From assembly GCA_964017185.1 (NCBI GenBank), contig OZ024870.1, positions 56,484,312-56,548,311 of the forward strand: a stretch of 64,000 nt of DNA. The letters are read 5' to 3'. The stretch's first letter is position 1. Every line of letters starts with the position of its first letter. This DNA comes from Rugalucina vietnamica (taxonomy: Eukaryota > Mollusca > Bivalvia > Lucinida > Lucinidae). A model generated the notes under the pieces. The model did not search any database, was not told where the DNA came from, and saw only the letters and a program-made list of their open reading frames with translations. Shown piece after piece: positions 29,230 to 45,320 of this stretch. A program made the position numbers and the translations under genes.

Positions 29230-29530
29230 ATGTTCATAGAGAAAAGAAGGCAATGATCAGTAAAAATGGCGCAATCAGAAAAAAAATCCCACTCCAAAAA
29301 CCGAGGTGGGAAAAAAACTAAATTACTATATACTTATACAAAGAAATCTAGCTGAGTGAGCAGCTATTTTTTCAAAAGGCGACCACTCAGTTACCAAAAC
29401 TTTCCTAAAATATGGAAACATACAAAAGGTGCAAACAGCACAAAAATTCAACGCCAAAACATAAAAAAGTAATAACCATCACAGAAGCATCGCCTTGGAA
29501 CGATCTTTAAACTAGTTTCAAACGGTATTT
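29230..29530 (-). mobile_element. Retroelement 3' tail only (copy 3)
   Basis: On the minus strand this matches the last 300 bases of the tail at 16386-17645 (CGTTCCAAGGCGATGCTTCT, GAGTGGTCGCC, CCCACCTCGGTTTTTGG). It carries no coding sequence. It lies just upstream of the P2X7-domain gene. Confidence 0.75.
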
Positions 29531-29741: not shown

Positions 29742-29758
29742 TGACGTCATAGCGGAAG
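29742..29758 (+). promoter_or_regulatory. CRE and ETS-type motifs upstream of the P2X7-domain gene
   Basis: TGACGTCA (29742-29749) is a perfect cAMP-response-type palindrome and CGGAAG (29753-29758) is an ETS core, 35-50 bases before the ATG at 29793. There is no TATA box at the right distance. Known factors bind such motifs; use here is inference. Confidence 0.45.
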
Positions 29759-29792
29759 GTGAAGGCCATAATAACTTACACACTCATTCGTA

Positions 29793-29986
29793 ATGGACGT
29801 GATATTCGATAGTGATTTGAGCGATGATTCGGAGGTTGAACTGGACCAGCCTGGTCCTATTCAACCCTACATGTATGAACCGACCAGGGAAGAACGGGAA
29901 GAGACATCGGAAAGCGAAGAAGATGAGGAATTTGAGCAAAATGACCCCGATAGTGACACTGAAATCGGACCAGCTGTTGCGACTTG
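29793..29986 (+). CDS. P2X7-domain gene, exon 1
   Basis: Codes 64 residues plus two bases (TG) of the split Trp codon. Acidic and probably disordered. The ATG is the first in frame. Confidence 0.8.
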
Positions 29987-32900
29987 GTAAGATAATGTAC
30001 TTATAAAATTATATTTTTTGCGCATACCGTAACGATTTCATCCGAGTTGTCTGTGAGTCGATTTTTTTTCTTTTACCGACGAGTTAATTGTGCTGGATTT
30101 TATATTTATTTTCGGTATTTTGCGAATTCAAGAGTATCAATAGTCAATAGATAGATTTTACCCCACCCGGCGATCGATGTGTACTCGGGAGTAATTATCC
30201 GGGTTGAAAGTCTCGATCATCGCCTTCAGTGGGTTATTTTTTTATTTCAATTATATTTTTTATGGAAACTGAATTTCCATAAGATGCATGATGTTTACAT
30301 TTTTCTTTCTTTGATCAACACAGCTATTGGTCCAAGTTCATTGGGAAGATAATTGAGAAATAACTGCCCAGGAAATATGGTTCTAGTCCCAGTTGAGCCA
30401 TCCATTCTTAGCCTAAGTTGTTTACTTGGGTGGCTATTTTTCAAGCAAATTTTGGGTGTCACGATCTGTTGGTTAGAAATCAGATTATTCCATAAAGTTG
30501 AAGCATGACCATAGCTGTTGCCTGGCACGTAAAGCATCAAAGAAAATTTTACTTTTGCTTATAACTTAGTATTAAAATCTTTGATAAATTTCAACCAGTT
30601 TGCAAAGTCTAAAAGAGTGGCTATCCTTCTAGAGCATGTCCTTTTCCATCTGTATATTGCATTGACATGGGTGTAGGAAAATATGGCCCGGGCGGGCTCG
30701 AACCCAGGGTCTCACGCTTGCTGTGCCAGCACTCTACCACTGAGCTACAAGCCACATCATGTAGACAGGTTACATAGTCCCCTTGCTTAATTAGATTCAT
30801 CCCCGAATCTGCTTGGAACCATGCCATTATCGGTGAGACATTCCTATTTTGCCATTTGCAGACCAAGCACAAACCCACATCAGATGTCATGGGGAGGTGG
30901 GGATTCGGTCCAACCGGGACTTGAACCCAGGGTCTTTCGTTTACCGTGCGAGCACTCTACCACTGAGCTACTAAGCCGCATGCCGACCGGTTACAGTAAT
31001 GAGTATAATGCCAATTATATGTGGCATTTCAATAATTAATTCTAAAGTACTGTAGATACAGGCATCAAGCACACTAACTTGAAACTGCAAATATTAACAG
31101 GTTATTTCATTTATGAAGGTTCTTGGTGTTTATTATTTCACCAAAACTATGATACTGGGATAAAAGAAATAAAACATGTTCCACATATTCCACCTTTATT
31201 CTATAATACTGTTTGCATAATTAATAGACAATCATACTGTGTATGGCATATTTTATATGTACATGTAGATGCAGACAAACTTTCCAAGTGTTTGGTTCTG
31301 CGTTTTAACTTTCCAACGTTTTAATAGTCATGTTGCGACAGAGCCATCGTTTCTTGGGTACCATAAATGAGAGAAATTTGGATGAAATACCACTATAATA
31401 ATTATAAAAATACTACTGTTAGCCATCTACATGATTGAGCACTAAATTAGAGAGCAATATACAATTGCACATGTATAAGCAATAACGAAAACTAAAGAAT
31501 TCAATTTCGAATAATAGAATATTAAAAACATTGTCATATCTCAAGAATAATATGCCATTCAGTTTTATATATATCCGAATCGGATGTAAATATGTGCAGA
31601 GATTGATAAATTACTGTGGTAGCAAAGATGATTAATATATATACCATGGGAAAACCAACAATCTGCATATGCGAAAACAAAGGCTTACTGCGAAGCTGAT
31701 CAGCACCTTTGTTTTCACTACACGGATAGTACAATTCTTCTACTTTCTAAATCCAAAATTTCCAGTCTCTAGCCATCTTTTGTGCTTGTAATGTACAGCC
31801 CTGTATGTATCGGACCTGTTTGGAAACTACATTGTTGGTTTTCCCATGAGGTGGCTTATATATGTATAATTGTAATGTATCATTGTGACTGGGCATTCAT
31901 CAAACTGCATCTATGCTCATGGGCTGTGGCAAGATAAAATGGTCATTTCAACCTTTTCACATGTACAAAAACAATGCTTTGAGATATAGAGACAGTTTAT
32001 GCCTCAGATAGTGGTACATGGTGGTAGCAAACTGGAAAGACAAATCCAATAATTTTGATTTAGTGTCTGCGATGAAATATCAAAATAAATGCCTTAAAAT
32101 GGCTAAATTTTGAGTGTACAATGTTTCCTGTATATTTTCAATAAATTTCATTTGCATTTTTTAACCCTTATCTAGCTCCAAAGCAGCATATATATAGCTT
32201 TATAACCTGGAGATATTACTGATGTTTGTTTTGATATATTGTTCATAATTTTATCGCAACTGATGCTCGTATGACAAACTTTTGAACATTTGTGGTCGGA
32301 TGTTACGAAAAGGTTTTCAAATTTTGATAGCTTTTTATAATCCATTATAAAAATACCAAATATATGAATTGTGTAATTGAAACTGTGGTATGTAATAGTC
32401 ATGACATGTCTTTTTTTATACTTCAGGCTTTGGAAAGCTGACTACTAAGAGGAAAATTGATATCAATTTTTATATGCTATTTTTTAGGGTGTCCGAAACG
32501 GCCTGTATCATCCGAAGAGTGGCTATTTTCTCTAATGCACAAAGTTACAAACAGTTCATATTACCTTTTTTTAATGGTTGATGAAAAACAGTATAAGAAC
32601 ACAAGGATTTTTTTTGCTCTGCGTAAACCCTCGGAAAACATTGTTGCCGATATGTGTCCGAAACAAATGTTTGTATCATCCGAAGAGTGCTTTTCACAAA
32701 ATGTTGGTCTGTGATTTTGTTCTCTGTTTCTCTATTTTGTTTTTTTTACCTAAGCTTTTCACAAATTAAGATGTGATGATTTGTAAGCCAAAAATCTTCT
32801 ATCATAGTATGCTGAACTGAAAAAAAAATGATTTTTAGAAATTCGGCTTCCTAAGCTCATTCTTAGGACACACATATAAAATTCATATAAAATTAATATG

Positions 32901-35575
32901 CAGTGATGAATTAGGAAACATATGAATGATCATTGTTATGCTTTGGTTTTATTTAAATAATAGATGCATGTATTAAAATCTATATTATTCTTGGGTTTGT
33001 ATCATCCGAAGAGCTCTTCGGACGAGATACATAGTACTCTTCGGATGATACAGCTCTTGAATTGTATCATCCGAAGAGTTCTATGTATCGTCCGAAGAGT
33101 TCACTTACAATTTTAAAAGAGATTAAAATGGAAAAAAGAAGCTTTTATAATAATGTAAGATATCTATCAAGTAGCTTTATGGTGTAAATTATGAAAAAAT
33201 CATGAAATTGATTCAAAAGCTGTATCATCCGAAGAGCATTGTGTATCATCCGAAGAGCATTATGTATCGTCCGAAGAGCATTTGTATCATCCGAAGAGCT
33301 GACTGTAATGATATACAAAAAAAAATGCCCAATATCTTTTGGAAAGGTTTGGGTTGTATGTCAGAGAAAACAATACCAACAACACATCCTTGAGTAAGAC
33401 AGATGTTTGCATTCACTTCTCTCAGAAATAACTTAAAAAAACCTATAAAAAATGTTAATTTGATACAGTACTTCAAAAGATGTGGAAATTAAATACATCA
33501 GCAAATTCAAAGCAACTTTGGTCCATGTTTGTTTTTTGGATGAAGGACTAAACTTATAATAAAACATGAAAAGACAAACAACACAGTTTTCATTCTTTCA
33601 GTTATTGGCTTTAAAAGGTGGTTGTAGCGTCCGAAGAGTTTTCAGGGGTTCATCTCGAAAAAAAGACACTGTCAGCAAATATGGCAAAAAGTTATCTTCT
33701 CATTACCATTTCTGGTTATGGCAGTGATTAGGCTATAACATAGTGCTAAAGAGATGATGATTTGAACAAGTTGAAAAATTGACACCCAGGAAACACTTTT
33801 TGTCCATTTTATCTTGCCACAGCCCTCATGTACTGGTGGATATGTGATAATGTCTTCTCAATGATATTAGTGAAGAACAAGCAAAACATTTTAAAGGAAA
33901 CAGTGGTAACCCTCATTATTCCCTCTAAATACACCCGTATGTACATTTTAGTCCAAAAATGATTCCACAAGTTAACAACACAAAAGATACATTATCAGCA
34001 CAGTGAAGCACTATTGGCACCAGTACAGTACAGTAAATACTGTGAATAATGCATTTACAAAAATGAGTGTATATACAACTAACAGCATGTAGAAAATGTG
34101 CAGAACTTATTTTCATTTGAAACATAGAGAATTTACCCAAATGTACAGGCTTCGAAACAAAATTAAGACTGCAATGGGTATATGAGCAATTGTACATGTC
34201 TGGTCACATAAAAGCAAAAACACACTTTGCTTTTCTAATTCGCTTTCCAAACAAGATGGCTGCTAAACACAATTAAATGATACCCATCTTAATTGCCTTA
34301 GAAACGAAATAAAGGCCAAGAGTAAAGTATCATGAATTGTCTACCTAGACATAAAATCCATCAAAGTTCTGTTAATTAACATCTACACAAAAAGTTGCTT
34401 AATTCTGTTATATGACATCTAAAACCAATGCATCTGTTCATAAGAGAAGTAAAAAGAAGCATAAAAGTATGAGCCGTGTTATGAGAAAACCAACATTTTG
34501 CATACACAAATATGAAGGTGCAGACCAGCTTCGAAGTAACTGCAAAGTTGATCACTGCCTTTGTTTTTGCTACACATAGCACACAATTTTCCTCTACTTT
34601 CTAAATCCCAAGTTTCCAGCCTCTACCCATCTTCTGTGCTTGTATACCTTGGTTTGTGTCCGACTTGTTCGGAAACCACATTGTTGGATTTCTCATGACA
34701 TTGCTCATTTAAAAGAAATGGATACTGATATCAATATACTTAGCATATAAGCATCTAACCATCATATAAGGATTTGGTAATAATTCTATTTACAATATAA
34801 AGATATATACATATGAATACATGTCTATCTATATACAAGGTTACACAGGAGCTCTACAATGCTTTTGTGTTTCATTTCACAATACATTTAGTAACATTGA
34901 AAATTTGCCTATTTTTCAGGTGCCAATGTGGAAACTGCCGTGTAATGCGCAACTTGAGAGAAAGTAAATGCTGCCAGACAACGAATGTTGTAGATGGAAG
35001 ATTAGAAGGACTAGCCTGTATAACAGAACACGAGGGCTTCAGAGTTAACTGCCTTAACCCTCATGTTCTAGAAGTGGCCTATTATGATCATGTGCTTCAA
35101 GAAGGTCCACGAGAGGAGCATCAAAGAATTCACCGGTAAGTTTGATATTTTATAAGTACTGTACATGTACGATAACAATTATCATCAAAACATAGTCAAT
35201 CAAATATTCATATGCGTGCACACTTGTATATAAAATAACGGCTGTCTGAGCATGTATGGAAGTACCTCAAAGTAGGCTTAATTTTAGAACTGCTGTGCAT
35301 GTTGATACTTTATCCATACAATGAAACTGATTTGATAATAATTCAGTTCTTCCGACTCATTTGATTTGTATATACACATGTAACTAAAACTGGTTACTGA
35401 TGTTTATCATTTCAGGCTGTATCGTAATATTGCCTACAGGAGGTTCTCCAGATGGATTTATGGTTTACTGGGAAAAGGTGTGCGAAAAGTGATACCATCA
35501 TGTGCTGTTCTAGCCATTCGGACTCAGTTTCCCTCTGACTCTGGTGACTATGTAGGATTTAGATACCCTCAGTGA
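29793..35575 (+). CDS. Stand-alone P2X7 ballast-domain protein (3 exons, 189 aa)
   Basis: CDS join 29793-29986, 34920-35135, 35416-35575. Both introns are GT-AG (GTAAGA, GTAAGT donors; TTTTTCAG, TTTCAG acceptors) and phases agree. Residues 1-60 are strongly acidic (DSDLSDDSEVE, ESEEDEEFE). The first splice recreates W65 of WCQCGNCRVM, the start of the zinc-binding cytoplasmic domain known from P2X7, followed by KCC (81-83), C98, C109, and the C-terminal block AYRRFSRW, GKGVRKVIPSCAV, AIRTQFP, GDYVGF. The P2X7 ballast is known to bind zinc and guanine nucleotide. Here there are no membrane segments or channel domain, so a soluble protein is expected; its role is unknown. It converges with the transposase-like gene. 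Exon 1 alone would end at a TAA inside the donor, so splicing is required. Confidence 0.87.
30682..30755 (-). repeat. tRNA-like SINE head 1 (intron 1)
   Basis: Minus strand shows A-box TGTAGCTCAGTGGTAGAGT and B-box GGGTTCGAGCCCGCC. The anticodon-stem equivalent does not pair, so this is a tRNA-derived repeat rather than a tRNA gene. Confidence 0.6.
30907..30979 (-). repeat. tRNA-like SINE head 2 (intron 1)
   Basis: Minus strand shows AGTAGCTCAGTGGTAGAGTG and B-box GGGTTCAAGTCCC. It is homologous to the head at 30682 (same orientation, both with a GACAGG/GACCGGTTACA upstream flank). The acceptor stem is degenerate. Confidence 0.6.
31645..31860 (+). mobile_element. MITE family A copy (intron 1)
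   Basis: Left CCATGGGAAAACCAACAATC, right TGTTGGTTTTCCCATGAGG. The hairpin arm is GCGAAAACAAAGGC against GCACCTTTGTTTTCAC. Confidence 0.85.
31921..33825. mobile_element. 1.9-kb inverted-repeat element with GTATCATCCGAAGAG repeats (intron 1)
   Basis: The 22-base ends (31921-31942, beginning GGGCTGTGGCAAGATAAA) are exactly inverted at 33804-33825, and TCAT flanks both ends (31917-31920, 33826-33829) as a target duplication. Inside are about 12 copies of GTATCATCCGAAGAG or GTATCGTCCGAAGAG (32506, 32678, 33000, two inverted near 33018-33054, 33063, 33084, 33222-33298; a shortened one at 33628). No transposase frame was recognised. Family unknown. Confidence 0.85.
34472..34706 (+). mobile_element. 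MITE family A copy (intron 1)
   Basis: Left GAGCCGTGTTATGAGAAAAC, right TTGTTGGATTTCTCATGAC. Contains CTGTGCTTGTATACC and the GTTTGTGTCCGAC block. Confidence 0.8.
34920..35135 (+). CDS. P2X7-domain gene, exon 2
   Basis: Residues 65-136 plus two bases: WCQCGNC, KCC, ACITEHEGFRVNC and VAYYDH. It holds most of the Cys/His set expected for zinc binding. Acceptor ATTTTTCAG, donor GTAAGT. Confidence 0.88.
35416..35575 (+). CDS. P2X7-domain gene, exon 3
   Basis: Residues 137-189: RLYRNIAYRRFSRW, LGKGVRKVIPSCAV, AIRTQFP, GDYVGF; stop TGA at 35573-35575. This is the signature C-terminal block of the family. Confidence 0.88.
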
Positions 35576-36336
35576 CATATTCAAGAAACAATGTGACAAA
35601 CTAATATTTTACTAATCTACAGAAGCCACCCTATACATATAATACATGTATATGAACATCAAAGAAAAGTTTGCAATAAGCCAACAGTTGAGCATATTTT
35701 TCTGTCTAGGATTATATGTACATGCGAGTCTTTTTGACAGTTCATGTTTTCTTGTGTTTCTCTTCACAATAAGTAAATACATCTATTATTCATGTAGCAT
35801 GTTTTGCCTTTTCATGTTTTATTGCCATCAGCTCTTTTCTAGTTCAATTATTTTAAGCAATAATATGTGGAATCTGCCCTTAAAATTTCTGATCAGATCC
35901 TATACAGACTAGCTGACACATGCTAGGAATTGTGGCCTGAAGTACAAGGATTGTTCTATGGAGCTACATGTAAATGATTAATCCACACTGCTTTTAACTT
36001 GTTTTACATAATAGAAGCAGCTTTGCCACTAAGCCACTAAGCACTGCTCTTGAAATAGCCTCCATTGTGACATTTGATTATATTAAAATAAATTCATGGT
36101 TGGTGCAAATCATAAATCAATTACAGGTCATGTAGTTCCAATCCATGTAATAAAATTCACCTATTTTCAAGATTTCAAAGGATACAAATACATGTACATA
36201 GATTTTTAATATGTTTCTATTTTTATTTGTAAAATACAGAGCTTGTTTCTGTAGCTTACATAATGTTTCAGTCCAACCTGATAGGAACAACAATAAATGA
36301 AAGATATAATAATGTCTGTATAACAATACTATATAT
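35576..36336 (+). other. Probable 3' UTR and intergenic spacer between convergent genes
   Basis: No gene. A possible poly(A) signal AATAAA lies at 36087-36092 on the plus strand, about 510 bases after the stop. Confidence 0.35.
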
Positions 36337-36562
36337 GAGCCGCCTCATGTGAAAACCGACAATTTGCATATGCGAAAACAAAGGCGTAGATCAGCTTCGC
36401 AGTAACTCAGCGCTTTGTTTTCACTACACGGATAGTACAATTCCTCGACTTTCTAAATCCAAAATTCTAAGCTTCTAGCCTGCTTCTGTGACTGTGCAGG
36501 CCAGTTTGTGTCAGACCTGTTCTGAAACCACAATGTTGGTTTGCCCAAGAGGTGGCTCATAT
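36337..36562 (+). mobile_element. MITE family A reference copy
   Basis: Complete: GAGCCGCCTCATGTGAAAAC left, GGTTTGCCCAAGAGGTGGCTC right. Hairpin GCGAAAACAAAGGCGTAGAT against CAGCGCTTTGTTTTCAC, then TAGCCTGCTTCTGTGACTG and GTTTGTGTCAGACC. Confidence 0.9.
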
Positions 36563-36850
36563 AATGTCTATATAGGTATATTGGCTTGTCAAAAATCCAT
36601 CACACTACAAGAAGTGGTTTAGCCTGCTAAACTCTAGATTTTATCATTTTCATGTACATGTTGTTTCGTAATTCCATCTTTAACTATTTTGTTATCCCAG
36701 TTCGTTTCACTTATAATATGATTCATAATTTTACACTTTTACACAAAATGTTCACCACATCATTTCACTTTGACCACGTCATTTCACAAGTAATTGCACT
36801 TCAGTTTATTGACAATGATGAATAGATCTGTTATGTTTCACTGCCAGAGT

Positions 36851-36856
36851 TTTATT
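36851..36856 (-). terminator. Poly(A) signal of the transposase-like gene
   Basis: AATAAA on the minus strand two bases after the TAA stop (36859-36861). A second AATAAA lies at 36805-36810. Confidence 0.4.
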
Positions 36857-36858
36857 GT

Positions 36859-37046
36859 TTATCTATTAAAACGCGCTCTATGAGCACTAACTATGTCTTC
36901 TTTCCTTGGTCTTGGTCCTGGTGTGCTGTGAGCCAATGGCTTTGGAGTGTTGGGGATTAACTGGCTGTTTGCACTCTTTGCTCTGGAGTAGCTCTTGTTC
37001 CGCTTCCTTTGTTCTAACAGGGATTCCATGAGTTTGTCAACATAGC
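36859..37046 (-). CDS. Transposase-like gene, last exon
   Basis: Reads GYVDKLMESLLEQRKRNKSY to ...AHRARFNR and stop TAA. Basic, Ser/Pro-rich tail. Acceptor TTTCTAG. Confidence 0.8.
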
Positions 37047-40000
37047 CTAGAAAGCAACAAATTAGATTATTAGTTGTTGAAAGTTAGTACATTGTATTGA
37101 CCAAGGTTTAACCTTAGTAATCTGAAACAAAAAGGTGAAAAAAACAAACAAAGAAAACAAACTATAAAATTCTAGAAATGAGTAGCTATGTTTATTCCAA
37201 TAGCTCAGGTTACAAAAATATAACAGCATGAGCTGCATCCCAGCCAACAATTTTTAGTCATGTCGGGACGGAGCCAATGCTTCCTCGGTTTTACCAGTAC
37301 TATATGGAGTTAATGTATTTTGCACAAGGACACAACATGATGGCGCCTGTGGGGATTGAACCTGGTATAATAAACCAGCGCAACAAAGTCCTTGTTACAT
37401 GGAGAAGCTAGATAGAGCTGACACCAAAACGAAAATAATTTGAATGATTTCAATAAAAGTGATCGATTATAAAGCATACCATATGTCTGATCTGACTTGA
37501 CTTCCTTGGCTACACCCTCTCCATGTCTAGACTTTGGAAATGAAACGGTCCACTGCAGTTCTCCAGTTTTTGTCACCGCCTGTGCCCTCCCAGCATTTTC
37601 ATTAAAATGCATTGCAGCCAAAGCCAATCTGAAATAAAAGATATTCTTTGTTAAACTAAAAAATTACAGTGTCAGACTAAAATAAAACAACAATTGAGAA
37701 AAGCAAGTAAAAATTGTTTTGCATGTTTTGTGCATTAACGTCCCAGTAAACATTTTCTCAGACATGAAACTGATCGTAAATGACAAACCTATTTTTGTGT
37801 AGATGATTATATGGTAAAACAAAGCTTCATAATAATTTGTAAAATTTGAATAAATGTGGTTTCTTCATGATACCATGAAAATTATGAGCCGCATCATGAG
37901 AAACCGGATTTTTACCTAGATGCAAAAACAAAAGGGCAAATCAGCTGTGCAGTAACTGCACAGCTGATCAGCGCCTTTTGTTTTCCTACACAGACAGTAC
38001 AATACCTTTCCAACCTGTAATCAAAATTTCAAGCTTCTAGGTTTCTTTTGTGACTGTTTAGACCGGTTTGTGTTGGACCTGGCCGGAAACCCCTTAACAT
38101 GCTTAAGACCGGTTTTCTCGCATCGCAGCTCATGTGGGAATTATAGACACAATATGCACACAGTGCCGAATCTAACAGAAATAACAAATACCTGGCCTCC
38201 ATCTGTGCATACATGTAATGGACAGCTTTAGCTGCGAAGTGACACACAACATTGTGGAAAGACTCAAGGGATGAGGTTTGTTCTGTGGGAGACAACTTCT
38301 TCACGTCATTCACAAGAAGCCTTCCCTTCACCACCTTCTCTACTTCAGCATAGGGTTTGAAACCTGAAAAACAATGTGTGTACTGTATAGTACATGAAGA
38401 ACAAAATCTGACAATAATCCCTGTATTTTTTTTATTATGTTTTTTTTTTGTTATTGTTCACTATTTACATAGCCATATTTTTCCTCAACCTTATTTTTTG
38501 GCATGAAAAACAAGCCAAATATTTTGCAGTTTGGGAAATTCTAAGTGAAAGTTGCCAAAATTAGGAATTTGACATGACTTAAAGTAAGAAATATTGATGG
38601 GATAGGGGGCATCTTTTCTGCCCCTGGAGATACACAGAAAATCAAATCCCATGAGATACAAATGTATACTAGTCATAGGCAGCAGTGCAGGGAAAAGTAT
38701 TAATTCTACTTCATTGTGCCAACAATAAAAGCAATGTGTTAGAAACAATATTTACCTTTTATCATCCAATCTCTGTCTTCAATTGTACCATGCTGACAAC
38801 GGGGAAATTTGTCACCATGCCCCTCGTGAACGTTGGTGATGTGGTTGAGGATGGATAACCACTTTTCTTGGACAAGTTCACCGTCTCCCCCACTGCTGGC
38901 CGCACACCAATACATGTGATTGCTGATAGACCTGGCCCACTTCTTCACTTTCTCACATCCCTTCTTCTTCCCCGCAGCTTCGAGCTTCTTATATACCCCT
39001 GCAAAAAGATAAAATTTAGGTGCATATACATGTATGTAAACATGCTGCTTGCAGTAGAGTAGTACATGCCATGTCTAATCTGGATTCAGTCTTTGCATGA
39101 GACTCGGAAAATTGCAGTATGGCATATTTATTCAAATCATTTAAGTGAAAGATTAACATATTTTCAAAAATTTCTTAATAGCGCCCTATTGAGATTATTT
39201 TAAGGATTTGCCCTGTTTGTGAACCCATTACAAAACCTTTCTACACTTTTAAAACTTATAAATGAATGACAATACCAACTGTAAACCAGGGGTCACAGGT
39301 TCAAATATGATCCCTGACTTCTACAGTATGTCAGAAGAGCCTATACACTGAGGTCCCATCTCAATATGACTTTAGCTGTTGGTGGGACTTTAAACCCAAA
39401 TCAATCAACCATACCTGGAGGCTGGTAAAATGCAAAAAGTTGGCTTCTTACATGGACAGTAGAAGTAAGGAACAGTAACATACCTTTGGCAACATGCCAT
39501 ACATCAAACCAGTGGTTGATGTGTGGGTTCTCTTCACGCATGTACTTTTTCACTGAGCTGTGGCGGTCTGTAACTAAGTCTGTGACGGTCATGTCGTTGG
39601 TGTCGATCACCCATTCAAGGCCCCTCTTCAAACCCTCCAGCTCCATGGCATGGGAACTTCCAACTTCATTGCTCTGTAATGCCAAAGACATACATGTACA
39701 TGAATGTACTGTGCATAAACATGATAAACTGTCTGATTATCTCTGTACCAAATATGTGCATCATGATAAAGTAGATCTTGCACACAATGTTACTGTCTTG
39801 CAACTAAATATACTGTGATGTTCATGTTGTTTGCTTGTTTGTTTTGTGGTTGACCATTGTACATTCCAGTCAATGTGGGGACAAAGTCACATCTAAGGTA
39901 TCCATAAACTTATCGCAACTTGTTTATAATTTATATAATGTTCTGCACATACACAATGTAGATAGAAAAAAACATTTCTGAACACACAGATGCCATGTGT

Positions 40001-43000
40001 GGTCAGTACTCAGTTCAATGCCATATCAAGATTTATTCGGATCACAATTACATGTGTAGCATATTTTCACACCACTTAGACTAGAGACAACAAATGTGTC
40101 TGAGAACAACCAACACAGATGGAATAAATTTTGTAACTCGTAAGACTGTAGTGTTCGAAAACCCTGTCAGGGAACAACTTTCCACAGGTCGATATATATG
40201 TGGAAAGATGTCCTAGATACATGTACATGCATTTATTATAATGTACATATTGTTGCACCTTTATTTCATCTGCATTGAATGTATCTGGATTAAGTGAGCT
40301 TTAGTAACTTTAAACAACTCCTGCAAAAATACATGTACAGTACTTTGAATCACTCTTACCTGTACTAATTGTATGTCGAGAACCTTCCCAGCCTCGAGGT
40401 CCAGCAGACTGTATGAACCATATTTGGCTGTGTGGCCTGGTGTACAGCAGCGCATATCTCCCGCTAGTCTTAGGAGTCTGTCTTCTTCCTTGATTGCTGC
40501 CACCATCTCTTGCTGTTGATCTCGCCAAACACTGATAATTGTCGGAGTCAAATATGCTGCTTGTATGCTGTTATATGTACTTATACTGATAGCAGCTATA
40601 TTTGCGAAGTTTAGAGCCCTCAAGTATTTAACTGGGCTGCTACCGGAGAACAATATTGCGGCACTAAGGGCTAAATTTCCCAGGGGCAAGTTGCCTGACA
40701 TCGGTTGTGTCCTCCAAGTGTTCACAGAGTCACAATTGAAGCACTGAATGTCACACACTAGTACTGAGCCTATTGTCCTCTTTGTTACACAAGTTTTTGA
40801 ACCACAAATCACACACTGGCCTAATAATTCGTCCAAACAGGATTCATATACTATGAATTTCTTTTCCTGGAGTTCATTCCTGTCTTTAGTAGTAAAGGTG
40901 TCATCTTCACAAGTACTTATGTCCTCTGGGTCAGGTTCCCAGTCTGGGTCATTTGGGTCATGTGTTGATCCGATTGAAAATAAACTGTCATTTAGACTCT
41001 CATTCATATGTTTTGTCCCTGGAATTTCCATTTTCACTTTCGTTTGAGTCCCTCTCTCAACATACTGGGGTTTCTCTGGGGGATACTGTATCAAGACACT
41101 TCTTCTTTTCTGAAATTATAATAATAAAGTAATATAACACTTGAACAGCAGTATGCATAAGATACGACACATAATAATCGTAGCATAAGGCCATCGTTAA
41201 AATTATTTCTGTTTGCTGTCTCCTGACCGACCCAACATTTTGGGCCCTACCCAAAAAATTTTACGGGATTCTGGGATTTTTTATTAATTTGTCTCCGCTG
41301 TCTAGATACATCTTTTCATTGGTCAAATTTTAAATCATATGATGTGCAAATGTTTTAAACTCTAGCTTTATGTATCAACCTTCACAGAAATTGCCATTTA
41401 TTACTTTATACATGTAATTGTAGATTCAGAAAAAAAAGTCAATAGCTTGAGATTGAAAAAAAAAAGACCTACCTACCGACCCACTCTAATATTTCTGGGT
41501 CGAATGACCGCAAACAAGATTTTTATATGATGGCCTTATAATGATAATAAAGCATCGGAAGTTACAGGTGGGCGAGGGTTCATGGTTCTATTTATGGAAG
41601 AACAGTAAGTAGTCTGTAGACAATGCAGCCCATTTGCTTTTTTTGTATACAGGTTTTGGTTTTCTTTTGAAATGGCTCCACTGTACATAACATTTATAAT
41701 ACAGCGTTATACTCACTGACTCTTTAAATAATAGAGTGAAACAAAAGGTCAATGATACAAACAACAGTCCTTATAGGACATCAGGAAAACATGTACGTGC
41801 AATGAATACTCCCTAAACCATGTAAACCCCCACTTTTATATAGTATAACTGGGGTATACTATGCGCCGTATGCGGGGGTATACCTATTTTTCTTATTTTT
41901 GCTCCTAACATATACAATGTACATGTATTGTGGGTACTCAATAGAACCGCCTCTAAGCAGTATCCACAATCTATGTTTTGGAGCAAAAATATTGAAAAAA
42001 TTATACTGAAAATTTCCATTTTAATCACTGTACAATGTACATGTATATTGTATGGGCATGTTTTCGTAATGGATGACTTACATGTATAATCATAGGTTTA
42101 TAAAAATATTCTAACCACTCTTTTGAAACCGCATGTAGTACAATAATTGCTTAAAATAGTAATTAGTTTAAGAAATGAATTTCATTTTTCTGGTGTTCAT
42201 GGAGCTATGAACCGCAGTGGGTCGCGTGCAAAGTGAATGAACCCCGAAGGGGTTCATGTAAGCTTTGCTAGCGACCCACTGCGGTTCATAGCTCCATGAA
42301 CAACAGAAAAATTAAACTCATTGCTTATATTTACATTCATTTCTCTCTATCGCTTGTTGAAAACTCACCAAGGCGGTCACATTTACCAGCAAACAGAGAA
42401 TCTACACAGTGTGTGTTCAAACAGCGGAACGGCGTCGACGTTTACAACGTCCAATCAGATTGGCGAGATTCATGTTTTTTGACGTCAAGTTTGAATTACG
42501 TCACGTCGCGTGACACAATGTTGTTCATGGAAGTATGAACACAGATGAACATCTAATGGTTCATCTAAGGAGGTTTTAGAAAAATGTAAATATATATATA
42601 TATGAATGGTAGACAACATTTTTTACATATATACTTACGACAAGATTTTTAGGGGTCTGTGTCTGCATTGAAAAACTTTCTCGGCATTTGTTGTTGATCT
42701 CTTCAGTCTTGGTTCGTTTACTTGGATGTTGTGTTGTTGACTTGGATGGGATAGAGTCTTGGTTTTGTTGATTATCTGACAGATTCACCGACACACATGA
42801 AGTAGTTTTTGATTCAGAATGTGACATATCCATTTCCACCTTTTGTTGAGATGATGCTACATCAGCAAACCATGATAATGAACACTGACTTGTTTGAGAA
42901 ACACTATTCACCGTGGACGCCACACTAGCAAACCATGCTAATGGGCACTGGCTAGATGGTGTAGTCTGACATGTTGTCTGGGATGTTGCCGTGGTGGTCA

Positions 43001-43166
43001 GTACAGTTGTTGTAGTCACTGCTGATGTTACACATGTTGTTGGTTGATACACTACATTTAGGGGCACAGCTTCGAATGGTCCATAGTCCATAAATGAGTC
43101 AGAGCTGGTCTCAGGTGCATTTTCTTCTGATGGAGGCTCAACTGATTTGGTCAGGGTTGATTTAAT
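36859..43166 (-). CDS. Transposase-derived (DDE-type, Kolobok-like) multi-exon gene, 5' incomplete
   Basis: Seven exons, minus strand: 43166-42639, 41109-40360, 39673-39484, 38998-38756, 38363-38192, 37628-37480, 37046-36859. All introns are GT-AG and phases agree, giving 739 residues with no internal stop. Counting from the first visible codon: a Ser/Thr/Gln-rich N-terminus (1-176); a Cys finger CVICG...C...C..C (275-302) then NTWRTQP; GDMRCCTPGHTAKYGSYS (393-410); LVTDRH (459-464); HWFDVWHVAK (480-489); SNHMYWC; NHITNVHEGH; LESFH (603-607); LAAMHFNENAGRAQA. Such proteins are common as multi-copy transposase-like genes in marine invertebrates and fish. Asp/Glu in TDRH, FDVWH and LESFH are candidate catalytic residues. 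RCC replaces the RCD I would expect. The start exon was not found; Met at 43091 is an alternative start (714 aa). Either an intact transposon gene or a domesticated one. Confidence 0.82.
37232..37375 (+). repeat. SINE-like repeat in the intron (same family as 28598)
   Basis: Contains GTCGGGACGGAGCCAATG, TACCAGTACTATATGGAG and GGGGATTGAACCTGG. Confidence 0.6.
37480..37628 (-). CDS. Transposase-like gene, exon 6 of 7 seen
   Basis: Reads LALAAMHFNENAGRAQAVTK to SFPKSRHGEGVAKEVKSDQ. The HFNEN...QA block is typical of the family. Confidence 0.82.
37884..38131 (+). mobile_element. MITE family A copy (intron)
   Basis: GAGCCGCATCATGAG left, GGTTTTCTCGCATCG right. Hairpin CTGTGCAGTAACTGCACAG at the centre. 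It lies 60 bases from a splice donor. Confidence 0.8.
38192..38363 (-). CDS. Transposase-like gene, exon 5
   Basis: Reads FKPYAEVEKVVKGRLLVNDV then KKLSPTEQTSSLESFHNVV. It carries the LESFH motif with a candidate catalytic Glu and the FAAKAVHYMYAQMEAR block. Confidence 0.84.
38756..38998 (-). CDS. Transposase-like gene, exon 4
   Basis: Reads VYKKLEAAGKKKGCEKVKKW, then SISNHMYWC, KWLSILNHITNVHEGHG and FPRCQH. The spaced His/Cys residues are family features. Confidence 0.84.
39484..39673 (-). CDS. Transposase-like gene, exon 3 (core motifs)
   Basis: Reads SNEVGSSHAMELEGLKRGLE, then DLVTDRHSSVKKYM and HINHWFDVWHVAK. It holds two of the candidate acidic catalytic positions. Confidence 0.86.
40360..41109 (-). 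CDS. Transposase-like gene, exon 2 (Cys finger and N-terminal core)
   Basis: 250 residues in phase 0: KRRSV at the start, acidic linker (DPNDPDWEPDPED), Cys finger, GNLALSAAILFSGSSPVKYL, STYNSIQAAYLTPTIISVW, GDMRCCTPGHTAKYGSYSLL, ending LVQ at the GTAAGA donor. Confidence 0.85.
41779..42072 (+). mobile_element. MITE family B copy
   Basis: Starts CATCAGGAAAACATGTACGT, ends GGGCATGTTTTCGTAATGG. Core arms TTATTTTTGCTCCTAACATA and TCTATGTTTTGGAGCAAAAA. It lies in the intron between exons 1 and 2 of the transposase-like gene. Confidence 0.85.
42185..42311. mobile_element. Fold-back element with 41-bp arms
   Basis: 42185-42225 (containing TTCATGGAGCTATGAACCGC and AGTGGGTCGC) is inverted at 42271-42311 with a single mismatch. 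The loop holds a second hairpin (GAACCCCGAAGGGGTTC). A related GTTCATGGAAGTATGAAC at about 42524-42541 may be the true far end. Confidence 0.85.
42639..43166 (-). CDS. Transposase-like gene, first visible exon
   Basis: Phase 0 from acceptor CTTTCAG: IKSTLTKSVEPPSEENAPET leading to MDYGPFEAVPLN, then low-complexity TTTTVLTTTATSQTTCQTT and two related peptides PLAWFASVAS and SLSWFADVAS. The donor after KNLV is GTAAGT. Probably disordered. Confidence 0.75.
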
Positions 43167-43169
43167 CTG

Positions 43170-45320
43170 AAAGATTAGGAAACATAAATTATTTTAGGAA
43201 ACATAAATAATCTATTTATTTATCAAATTCTTTACTTGTATTTCACTACAAGATGGTGTGTTTTATACGTTATATTACTGTTTTTGCTAAATGTGATTTA
43301 TTATGTTGGCACTAAATGTGTCATAAAAAGATCGTTGCCATTTATACAGTAATTCTATACTCTAACAATAAATCAGCAAAGACAGCTAAGAACATTATTA
43401 AAAGACACGTGAAAAACATTAGTATCATTTGCCAATAATTGCATCTTTGGTACACGAGTGCACGTATGTTTTATTATGCAAGTGCTCCGTGTGCAAAAAA
43501 TCTTTAAACGGCGTCTCCTCTTCTGTAGTATAAAGTTTATGCACCAGTCATTTGTAACCACTGCTCTCCACCTATGGGGATAGGTGGTGGATGACCGGAC
43601 TAAAGAGCGGAGCAATAACTTTCGATTGTCCCTGCAGTGCATTGGAAATGACAGGGTTTTGGCATTAGGAGCTTAACCCAAGAAAAATGCAAATAGCAGT
43701 TTTGGCCTCTAGTTTGTCCCCTAGTGGTAAGGCCCTTGTCTCGTAGATGGGGGCAGTGGTTACAAATGACAATCTCTTTCTAGGATGTAAAAGTTGCGAA
43801 AAAAGTTTTAAAAAAGTAAACAAAAAAAAATGGTTTAAAAAGAAAGGCACCGCTTGGTTCGAATCTCTTATTATAAAGGTACCGGTTATACAAAATGCTT
43901 TGTTTGTATTTTTGTATGTGCGTGTATTTATAGAAAAAATATAAGTTTTAACCCAAAACATTTTATTGGTTTTTCGTGCCAATTATTTGCATTCCTAATA
44001 TTACGAAAATTAAATCACTTGTATGTTTCTCTTTTCAGGAGGCGTAAACGTAAACAGAAAACAACATCAAATAAAAGTTGATTTTTGAAGAGTTAAGGTA
44101 AATCATTATACTTGTCTTCATATCATGGAAACTTTCTCGGTTATAAGACACATTAGATATTAAGGGGCTAACATACTTTTAATGGTTTTATTTTCAAAGA
44201 TTTTAACAGTTAATGGAACATCATAAAAAAGTTAAAAGCGCTGTTTACAAAGTTCTTTGCAGGTAAAAGCAGCTGGTGGTTTATATACTTAAGGACTTAA
44301 AATACGCAACACACTAAATTTCAACTTTTACGTATGCATTTGACGTTTTGATGAAATCCTTTTATGAAATGACATACTTACTGCTTTTTGCACGTGATGA
44401 AATGAGAAAACGTCATTTTATTGACAAAATCAACGACAAAGCGTCAAAAACCATGAAAAACGCAAATTGTAACGTAAACGTCGGGGCGAAGGGGAAGATC
44501 ACAAATTCTTTGCATGTGGGTTACGTGACGTCGACTTGATAATGTGCAATAAAGACTAGGATCATTGTATACTTAGATGCCGTCCCATGTTACGTTAAAT
44601 CTTGTTAACGGTATGCTGAAGTTTACAATAACGAAAAATGAGTAATTAACGTCATTTAAATCATTCGATTTTGGCTTTTTTGTACCTAAACGGTTTATAT
44701 CGAACCAACATACAACACGACGTGCTTTTTAATCAACAGTGACGTCACAGGTACCGTAGAAATGGATCATCGGAGCGTTTGTTTTGACGTTCGTTTAACA
44801 GAAAATCACGTTATGTAAAGGAGCGAAGCGGATTATATGCTTTGAGTAAACACTCTATTCACGCACTGTAATCAAACGTTTGGCAATTGATCATTTTTTA
44901 AATCAGAAAATTTGAAAACCATAATGAGAGTCTTTAAAATGCAGAATGTTGGATTTTGATGTTATTTCGAACCTCTCCAAGATGTATTAGCCCACAAAAA
45001 TCATAATTTTGTTAAATTTCTGTTTAATTTTCCAAATTTCTTCATTTTCAAAATTCCGTAGCCATTTTGCTGTATTTACATTTTTCAAGTTTGTAGCGGT
45101 GTGTTTATTTCTTATGTAGTTATATAAGGTTTTACAATGTTATGAGTAGTATGTAGATTTTTTAGATTACATTTTGTCTCCTAGTTTTGGACTGCCTATG
45201 ACAGGCAGATGTAGATATCACACTCTTATTATGTAGTATTTAGTAAGCCTCTGAAGAAGCCGAAAGGCGAAAGCGCGCTCAGGCACAAATAGGATTTTGC
45301 ACTGTTGATGATAAAATCTC
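43170..45320. other. Upstream of the transposase-like gene, no coding exon identified
   Basis: The missing 5' exon should lie here or beyond. A TGACGTCA palindrome at 44740-44747 in a locally CpG-richer stretch (44500-44900) is a possible promoter, by analogy with the P2X7-domain gene. No start codon with a phase-0 donor was convincingly found. Confidence 0.3.

Follow-up and report, generated by a model that had tools for sequence, protein, structure and literature searches.

A P2X7 ballast-domain gene convergent with a transposase gene in Rugalucina vietnamica, probably a remnant of a Kolobok transposon

Why should a gene for the cytoplasmic ballast domain of the P2X7 receptor, without the channel, lie tail to tail with a transposase-like gene? 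The question is raised by a 64,000-nucleotide stretch of the bivalve Rugalucina vietnamica (GCA_964017185.1, contig OZ024870.1, positions 56,484,312 to 56,548,311 of the forward strand), the whole of which is called the window here. A sequence-only reading of the window had described two intact convergent genes, possibly the two genes of one DNA transposon that could have spread the ballast domain until a receptor gene captured it, and had proposed to look for homologues that are repeatedly adjacent in the same layout and share common outer boundaries. Our analysis suggests, with a probability of about three in four, that the pair is what is left of an autonomous DNA transposon, a Kolobok element of the Kol0 type.

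The plus-strand gene (29793-35575; exons in Table 1) has three exons with canonical GT/AG junctions, is open from ATG to TGA and encodes 189 amino acids (aa). Its last exon matches the Pfam family PF20478, the P2X7 intracellular domain (43.5 bits, E 4.4e-11), while exon 2 alone scores 15.3 bits, below the cut-off; the spliced protein aligns with P2X7 residues 475-594 in searches of Protein Data Bank (PDB) chains (best E 9.9e-12). Whereas a P2X7 receptor is a P2X channel domain fused to the ballast, the 189-aa window protein gave a ballast match only, with no P2X channel part matched, so that the channel-less ballast domain of the sequence-only reading is borne out. All seven zinc cysteines are retained in the alignment with P2X7, and of the five GDP-contact positions taken from PMC7016195 the protein keeps R546 and R578, with H547, R574 and K583 changed (alignment read by eye); its description as zinc- and nucleotide-binding holds for the zinc cysteines and only in part for the nucleotide. 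A second gene of this kind, encoding a ballast-fold protein with seven cysteines named KolX, characterizes the Kol0 lineage (PMC9587614), and the window gene encodes just such a protein.

The minus-strand gene (43166-36859) comprises seven in-frame exons with 739 codons followed by TAA, its stop separated by 1,283 bp from that of the ballast gene. D394, D462, D483xxH486 and E604 (window numbering) are invariant across eight aligned transposase rows, namely that of the window, those of six long open frames and one made by joining the exons of E16; two pairs of rows are near-identical copies, and L010 and L014 were excluded for open frames shorter than 500 aa. Kolobok transposases have a DDD/E active site with a C/DxxH motif between the second D and the E, and the window protein has this arrangement. 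Its reading frame starts at an acceptor site (43166). Of the claim of two intact tail-to-tail genes, the layout, the gap and the complete ballast gene thus stand; the intactness of the transposase is not confirmed, given this start and a THAP domain that was not found in the searches described below.

All evidence on pairing, ends and trees comes from one searched genome of 1.09 Gb. The window transposase gave at least 81 matches (77 of 286 candidates scored) and the window ballast protein 88, to which ten places from the Pfam search were added, making a ballast set of 98 places; clustering gave 43 window-type transposase loci and 58 ballast loci, both lower bounds. A ballast locus lies within 20 kb of 27 of the 43 transposase loci, the window included, and all 27 pairs are convergent. 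A second, diverged transposase clade was spotted beside ballast matches that had first seemed solitary. It has 44 matches genome-wide; 14 coincide with first-clade loci and were excluded, and the remaining 30 form 16 loci, nine of which have a ballast match within 20 kb (compared with the 31 leftover ballast loci), eight of them in convergent orientation. For both clades together, 36 of 59 transposase loci have a ballast match within 20 kb and 35 of these 36 pairs are convergent, the pairs being non-independent copies of roughly ten families by our own grouping. Four ballast loci that lack a transposase match have a marked THAP place within 20 kb, which means that the transposase searches missed some; as THAP places were marked by hand-picking 40 of 126 matches, all THAP counts are lower bounds. 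The repeated convergent adjacency that the sequence-only reading had proposed to look for is therefore present within this genome. The idea of a host ballast gene that happens to neighbor an unrelated transposase has nothing in its favor beyond the missing ends of the window copy; rough arithmetic on 43 and 58 loci in 1.09 Gb predicts about 0.1 chance pairs, the pairing counts refute the idea, and in view of 35 convergent pairs among 36 and of the matching gene trees this explanation can practically be dismissed.

AG...CT termini with flanking TTAA are the mark of Kolobok DNA transposons, and such termini delimit the two near-identical copies, set in unrelated flanks, that were compared for each of the first-clade families F1, F2 and F6. 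The two F6 copies (C3 and C2) have unrelated flanks, TTAA at both ends and terminal inverted repeats (TIRs) of 5 bp, the first copy measuring 5,125 bp; the two F2 copies (C15 and C17), also with unrelated flanks, measure 6,042 bp (first copy) and 6.7 kb and have TIRs of 12 bp; the F1 copies (C15 and C14), compared over their end regions only, measure 16,754 and 18,591 bp with TIRs matching at 15 of 16 bp. F7, the closest transposase relative of the window, is represented by one C16 copy of 15,567 bp that has AGGGACTA ends, an 8-bp TIR and TTAA at either flank; the C2 copy shares the right end of this copy; no ballast gene was detected in the F7 relatives whose ends were found. In F3 the right end, beside TTAA, is shared and the left end is not settled. 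In the C8 family of the second clade, the 18-mer TTAAAGTTATACGATTGG from the right end is exactly matched four times genome-wide, and these four matches are both ends of two 11.1-kb copies; no difference was seen between the two copies over 3,249 bp, so they may reflect a later duplication rather than two insertions. A C6 copy of the same clade has a right junction one T short and a left flank of CTAA. The defining 4-bp TTAA duplication with 5'-RR...YY-3' ends is accordingly seen on both sides in F1, F2, F6, F7 and the C8 copies, and a THAP domain stands at the start of the transposase in relatives. These aligned relatives provide the common outer boundaries, with inverted ends and a target duplication, that had been suggested as a check, and together with the convergent pairing they support the view of two genes of one DNA transposon.

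Two other assignments were set aside. The exon at 39484-39673 gives a weak match to the Pfam Mutator family PF20700 (E 4.7e-5, 22.9 bits, below the 26.5-bit cut-off), and Mutator/MULE membership was dropped because the relatives show TTAA duplications and KolX. The piggyBac elements also target TTAA, yet are without RR/YY ends according to the parts of PMC9587614 covered here.

The transposase-core tree and the KolX tree, compared for ten shared lineages, have seven of seven splits in common, whereas none of 2,000 label shuffles gave more than four; the window pair occupies the same place in both trees, and support for some splits is weak, with values of 41 and 67 in one of the trees and of 64 and 77 in the second. 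The shared splits indicate that the transposase and ballast genes travel as one unit. Within the genome the window transposase adjoins F7; their cores are 60% identical, the top value among 11. Since pairing, Kolobok ends and matching trees make one unit, the stand-alone ballast protein is KolX. Relatives in this genome have a THAP-bearing DDE transposase on one strand and a convergent KolX, a small protein with the P2X7 ballast fold, on the other; the transposase would bind the element ends via its THAP domain, cut and join DNA via the D-D-E site and insert the element at TTAA, and KolX would assist the transposase of its own element, probably as a regulatory subunit or an assembly subunit stabilised by zinc. 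Both genes and the catalytic residues persist in the window copy, the THAP exon and both ends being gone or unrecognisable.

A transposon origin of the P2X7 ballast is already published, and the window is a new, damaged member of the system. In the parts covered here, Kojima and Bao (2022; PMC9587614) assign the ballast fold to KolX, a protein of Kol0 Kolobok elements, and derive P2X7 and probably also Nanor from it; capture of an element-borne ballast domain by a receptor, as the sequence-only reading imagined it, is thus their idea. Like Kol0 elements, the window has a DDE transposase with D/CxxH and a separate ballast-fold protein, and its relatives have TTAA and 5'-RR/YY-3' ends; unlike them, the window copy has no recognisable ends and no recognisable THAP. 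They also describe a KolobokP lineage in which the opposite strand, downstream of the transposase, encodes an accessory nuclease, a precedent for the convergent layout; the main-text parts covered here contain no statement on the Kol0/KolX layout, on joint trees or on two KolX clades. No other paper making the KolX-P2X7 link was found in open-literature searches, which consisted of listings, with only PMC9319628 checked further; in the parts seen, that paper has "Kolobok" and "P2X7" in unrelated places. The present data add independent support, from across a genome, to the published view of the P2X7 ballast domain as a former transposon protein, with the ballast gene and the transposase having a common history and the same convergent layout in many families.

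Several observations weigh against a Kolobok origin of the window pair. One second-clade pair is not convergent (C11:36079884-36083736, both genes on the minus strand). No ballast match lies within 20 kb of 16 of the 43 window-type transposase loci, which include the F7 relatives and at least seven THAP-bearing loci (Table 1), so in some lineages KolX is lost, missed or dispensable. As for the C8 ends, TTAAAGTTATACGATTGG has 43 further matches at one mismatch, 42 of them of a single variant that is presumably another repeat, and at up to two mismatches it has 77 matches compared with 304 for the backward control, so that only the exact matches carry weight. In the parts covered here, Rump et al. 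(2020; PMC7016195) link stand-alone ballast genes, in animals ranging from sponge to sea urchin, with two further markers and interpret this as ancestral synteny of host genes; they present stand-alone ZCD/ballast and Nanor-like proteins as few-copy host genes, which resemble the window protein in being short, having the ballast domain and having no transmembrane part. The term "transpos" occurs zero times in the main text of that paper.

The remaining points concern the window copy itself. No convincing ends, TIR or target-site duplication (TSD) were identified for it, in agreement with the sequence-only reading, which had found no inverted ends framing the pair. In two intact relatives the left end precedes the ballast ATG by 266 and 306 bp, and at that place the window has a high-copy dispersed repeat. 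When inverted TTAA-RR/YY-TTAA pairs were sought in the window between 22-29.8 kb on one side and 42.6-58 kb on the other, the longest perfect end pair was 5 bp (without a shuffle control). The candidate AG-type left ends nearest the ballast ATG, 29545 and 29620, have 27 and 58 partners in the window compared with about 30 and about 95 expected, and 29545, the only one covered by the genome-wide search, has no second exact match. A THAP exon was found neither in the 20.8 kb of window sequence upstream of the transposase exons (best E 1.7) nor in a further 6 kb beyond it (best E 1.4), 26.8 kb in total; the same model detected both E16 THAP exons (9e-20 and 3.7e-12), a non-independent control since the model includes the near-identical L047 THAP. 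Searches with the window flanks as DNA met mainly dispersed repeats, and a second near-complete copy of the window lineage was not found among the matches listed (77 of 286 transposase candidates scored; 88 ballast matches).

Could the window nevertheless hold a complete mobile element, its ends short or diverged and outside the recognised candidates, its THAP exon far upstream? Families in this genome do reach 16.8-18.6 kb, at other loci the distance between THAP and the transposase core is as much as about 13 kb, and TIRs as short as 5 bp occur. That no THAP was found within 26.8 kb upstream, that a high-copy repeat sits where the left end is expected, and that both candidate left ends lack a better-than-chance window partner, the one searched genome-wide also lacking a second exact match, make this very improbable. 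The TTAA duplication with RR/YY ends being found in the relatives and not in the window, the window sequence is Kolobok-derived and not a demonstrated complete Kolobok element; mobility is demonstrated for the relatives only. From the want of ends, of THAP within 26.8 kb and of another near-complete copy we infer that the window copy is probably immobile, being a relic or, as the less probable alternative, a domesticated pair.

Open frames after a loss of mobility could also mean domestication, the host having kept the THAP-less Kolobok transposase core and KolX as two ordinary genes once the ends were lost. Both frames are open over ten exons, and no other near-complete copy appeared among the matches listed (77 of 286 transposase candidates scored). 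Between the window and a fragment at C14, 4 of 307 exon sites differ, all four synonymously (about 0.006 by chance), and 36 of 1,067 non-coding sites differ; between the window and the F7 transposase, dN is 0.26 over 564 codons, with a dS that was not computable and is read as saturated. Because all four exon differences are synonymous, the ballast gene has probably been under coding constraint recently, whether it then served an active element or the host. However, the selection signal could date from the time when the lineage was an active transposon, there are just four exon differences, and the contrast between exon and non-coding rates is not significant (Fisher P 0.08); domestication therefore seems rather unlikely to us. 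If true, P2X7 would not be the only case of a host capturing the ballast domain: the window pair would be a second, independent one, with the transposase brought along.

KolX proteins in this genome form two clades, and the window protein belongs to the first. The second-clade KolX of L002, the one member searched, matches P2X7 with 80.7 bits (E 8.9e-22), compared with 48.2 bits for the window (whole protein as query), 38.2 for F2 and 39.5 for F3. P2X7 and the three second-clade proteins compared share the spacing CC-x6-C, whereas the gap from CC to the next cysteine in the first clade is 14 or 16 residues; with the P2X7 ballast (PDB 9e3m, 8tr5 and 6u9v) the window protein shares the seven zinc cysteines and the alignable region 475-594, and not the channel. 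The three second-clade proteins also have a PSCC motif and keep R546, H547 and R578, R546 and H547 being kept in the first-clade families F1, F2 and F8 as well. An unrooted tree of 12 sequences joins P2X7 to the second clade on a long branch (93 in the IQ-TREE ultrafast bootstrap, 0.916 in FastTree); percent identity to P2X7 separates the clades poorly (window 35%, F2 37%, second clade 35-38%). As the branch is long, a closest relationship of the P2X7 ballast to the second KolX clade is suggestive only. Two KolX clades with P2X7 nearer the second are a refinement not met in the parts of PMC9587614 covered here. The possible source of the P2X7 ballast would be narrowed to one of two clades, identical zinc-cysteine spacing included, which makes the origin of the domain testable; transposition assays could reveal the role of the fold outside the receptor.

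Table 1. Coordinates of the window features and of transposase loci lacking a nearby ballast match
Feature	Position	Strand	Remark
High-copy dispersed repeat at the expected left-end place	29400..29522	+	query began at 29400; start may lie earlier
Ballast (KolX-like) gene, exon 1, with ATG	29793..29986	+	GT/AG junctions
Stretch duplicated at C14:37710754-37712135 (L035)	34120..35506	+	95.7% identical; spans exon 2 and most of exon 3
Ballast gene, exon 2	34920..35135	+	zinc cysteines WCQCGNC, CC, ACIT (P2X7 alignment)
Ballast gene, exon 3, with stop	35416..35575	+	zinc cysteine PSC; PF20478
Transposase gene, last exon, with stop	36859..37046	-	
Transposase exon	37480..37628	-	
Transposase exon with catalytic E	38192..38363	-	SLESFH
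Transposase exon	38756..38998	-	conserved C/H residues between DxxH and E
Transposase exon with second D	39484..39673	-	TDRH; DVWH (D/CxxH) motif; PF20700
Transposase exon with first catalytic D	40360..41109	-	GDMRC
First transposase-like exon found; linker	42639..43166	-	homologous to an exon of C2/C11/C16 relatives
682-bp high-copy repeat inserted upstream of the transposase exons	44284..44965		39 other copies listed, 93-99% identical
THAP and transposase, no ballast within 20 kb	C2:16629758, C2:36635133, C10:36059089, C14:10693881, C16:15222315, C17:3478223, C5:2157067		

Some minor observations may be added. The transposase at C2:36635133 is the sister of family F2, which carries KolX, so at this locus KolX has been lost, missed or is supplied from elsewhere. 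The second KolX/transposase clade (L001-L004 and L006) has a different intron position in the ballast domain. The C14 fragment was considered as a source of shared outer boundaries and rejected, being merely a 1.39-kb internal fragment; a repeat of GTGATACCATCATGTGC at the right junction of the fragment may reflect template switching. C9 carries a homologue of ballast exon 1 (78% DNA identity over 29750-29914 and 65% over aa 1-40), and at C9:13861563, where this homology lies, the best transposase match (E 0.066) was not counted as real. The repeat at 44284-44965 is probably a young non-autonomous transposon. In ballast intron 1, the 15-bp motif GTATCATCCGAAGAG has 11 matches with up to two mismatches (0.06 expected) within 1.1 kb, at window positions 32505-33638, and a close variant of it is absent from all 84 fetched loci; genome-wide it has 627 exact matches compared with one for the backward control, and its clusters, of about two to eight among the matches listed, suggest an interspersed repeat that has a reiterated motif at its core.

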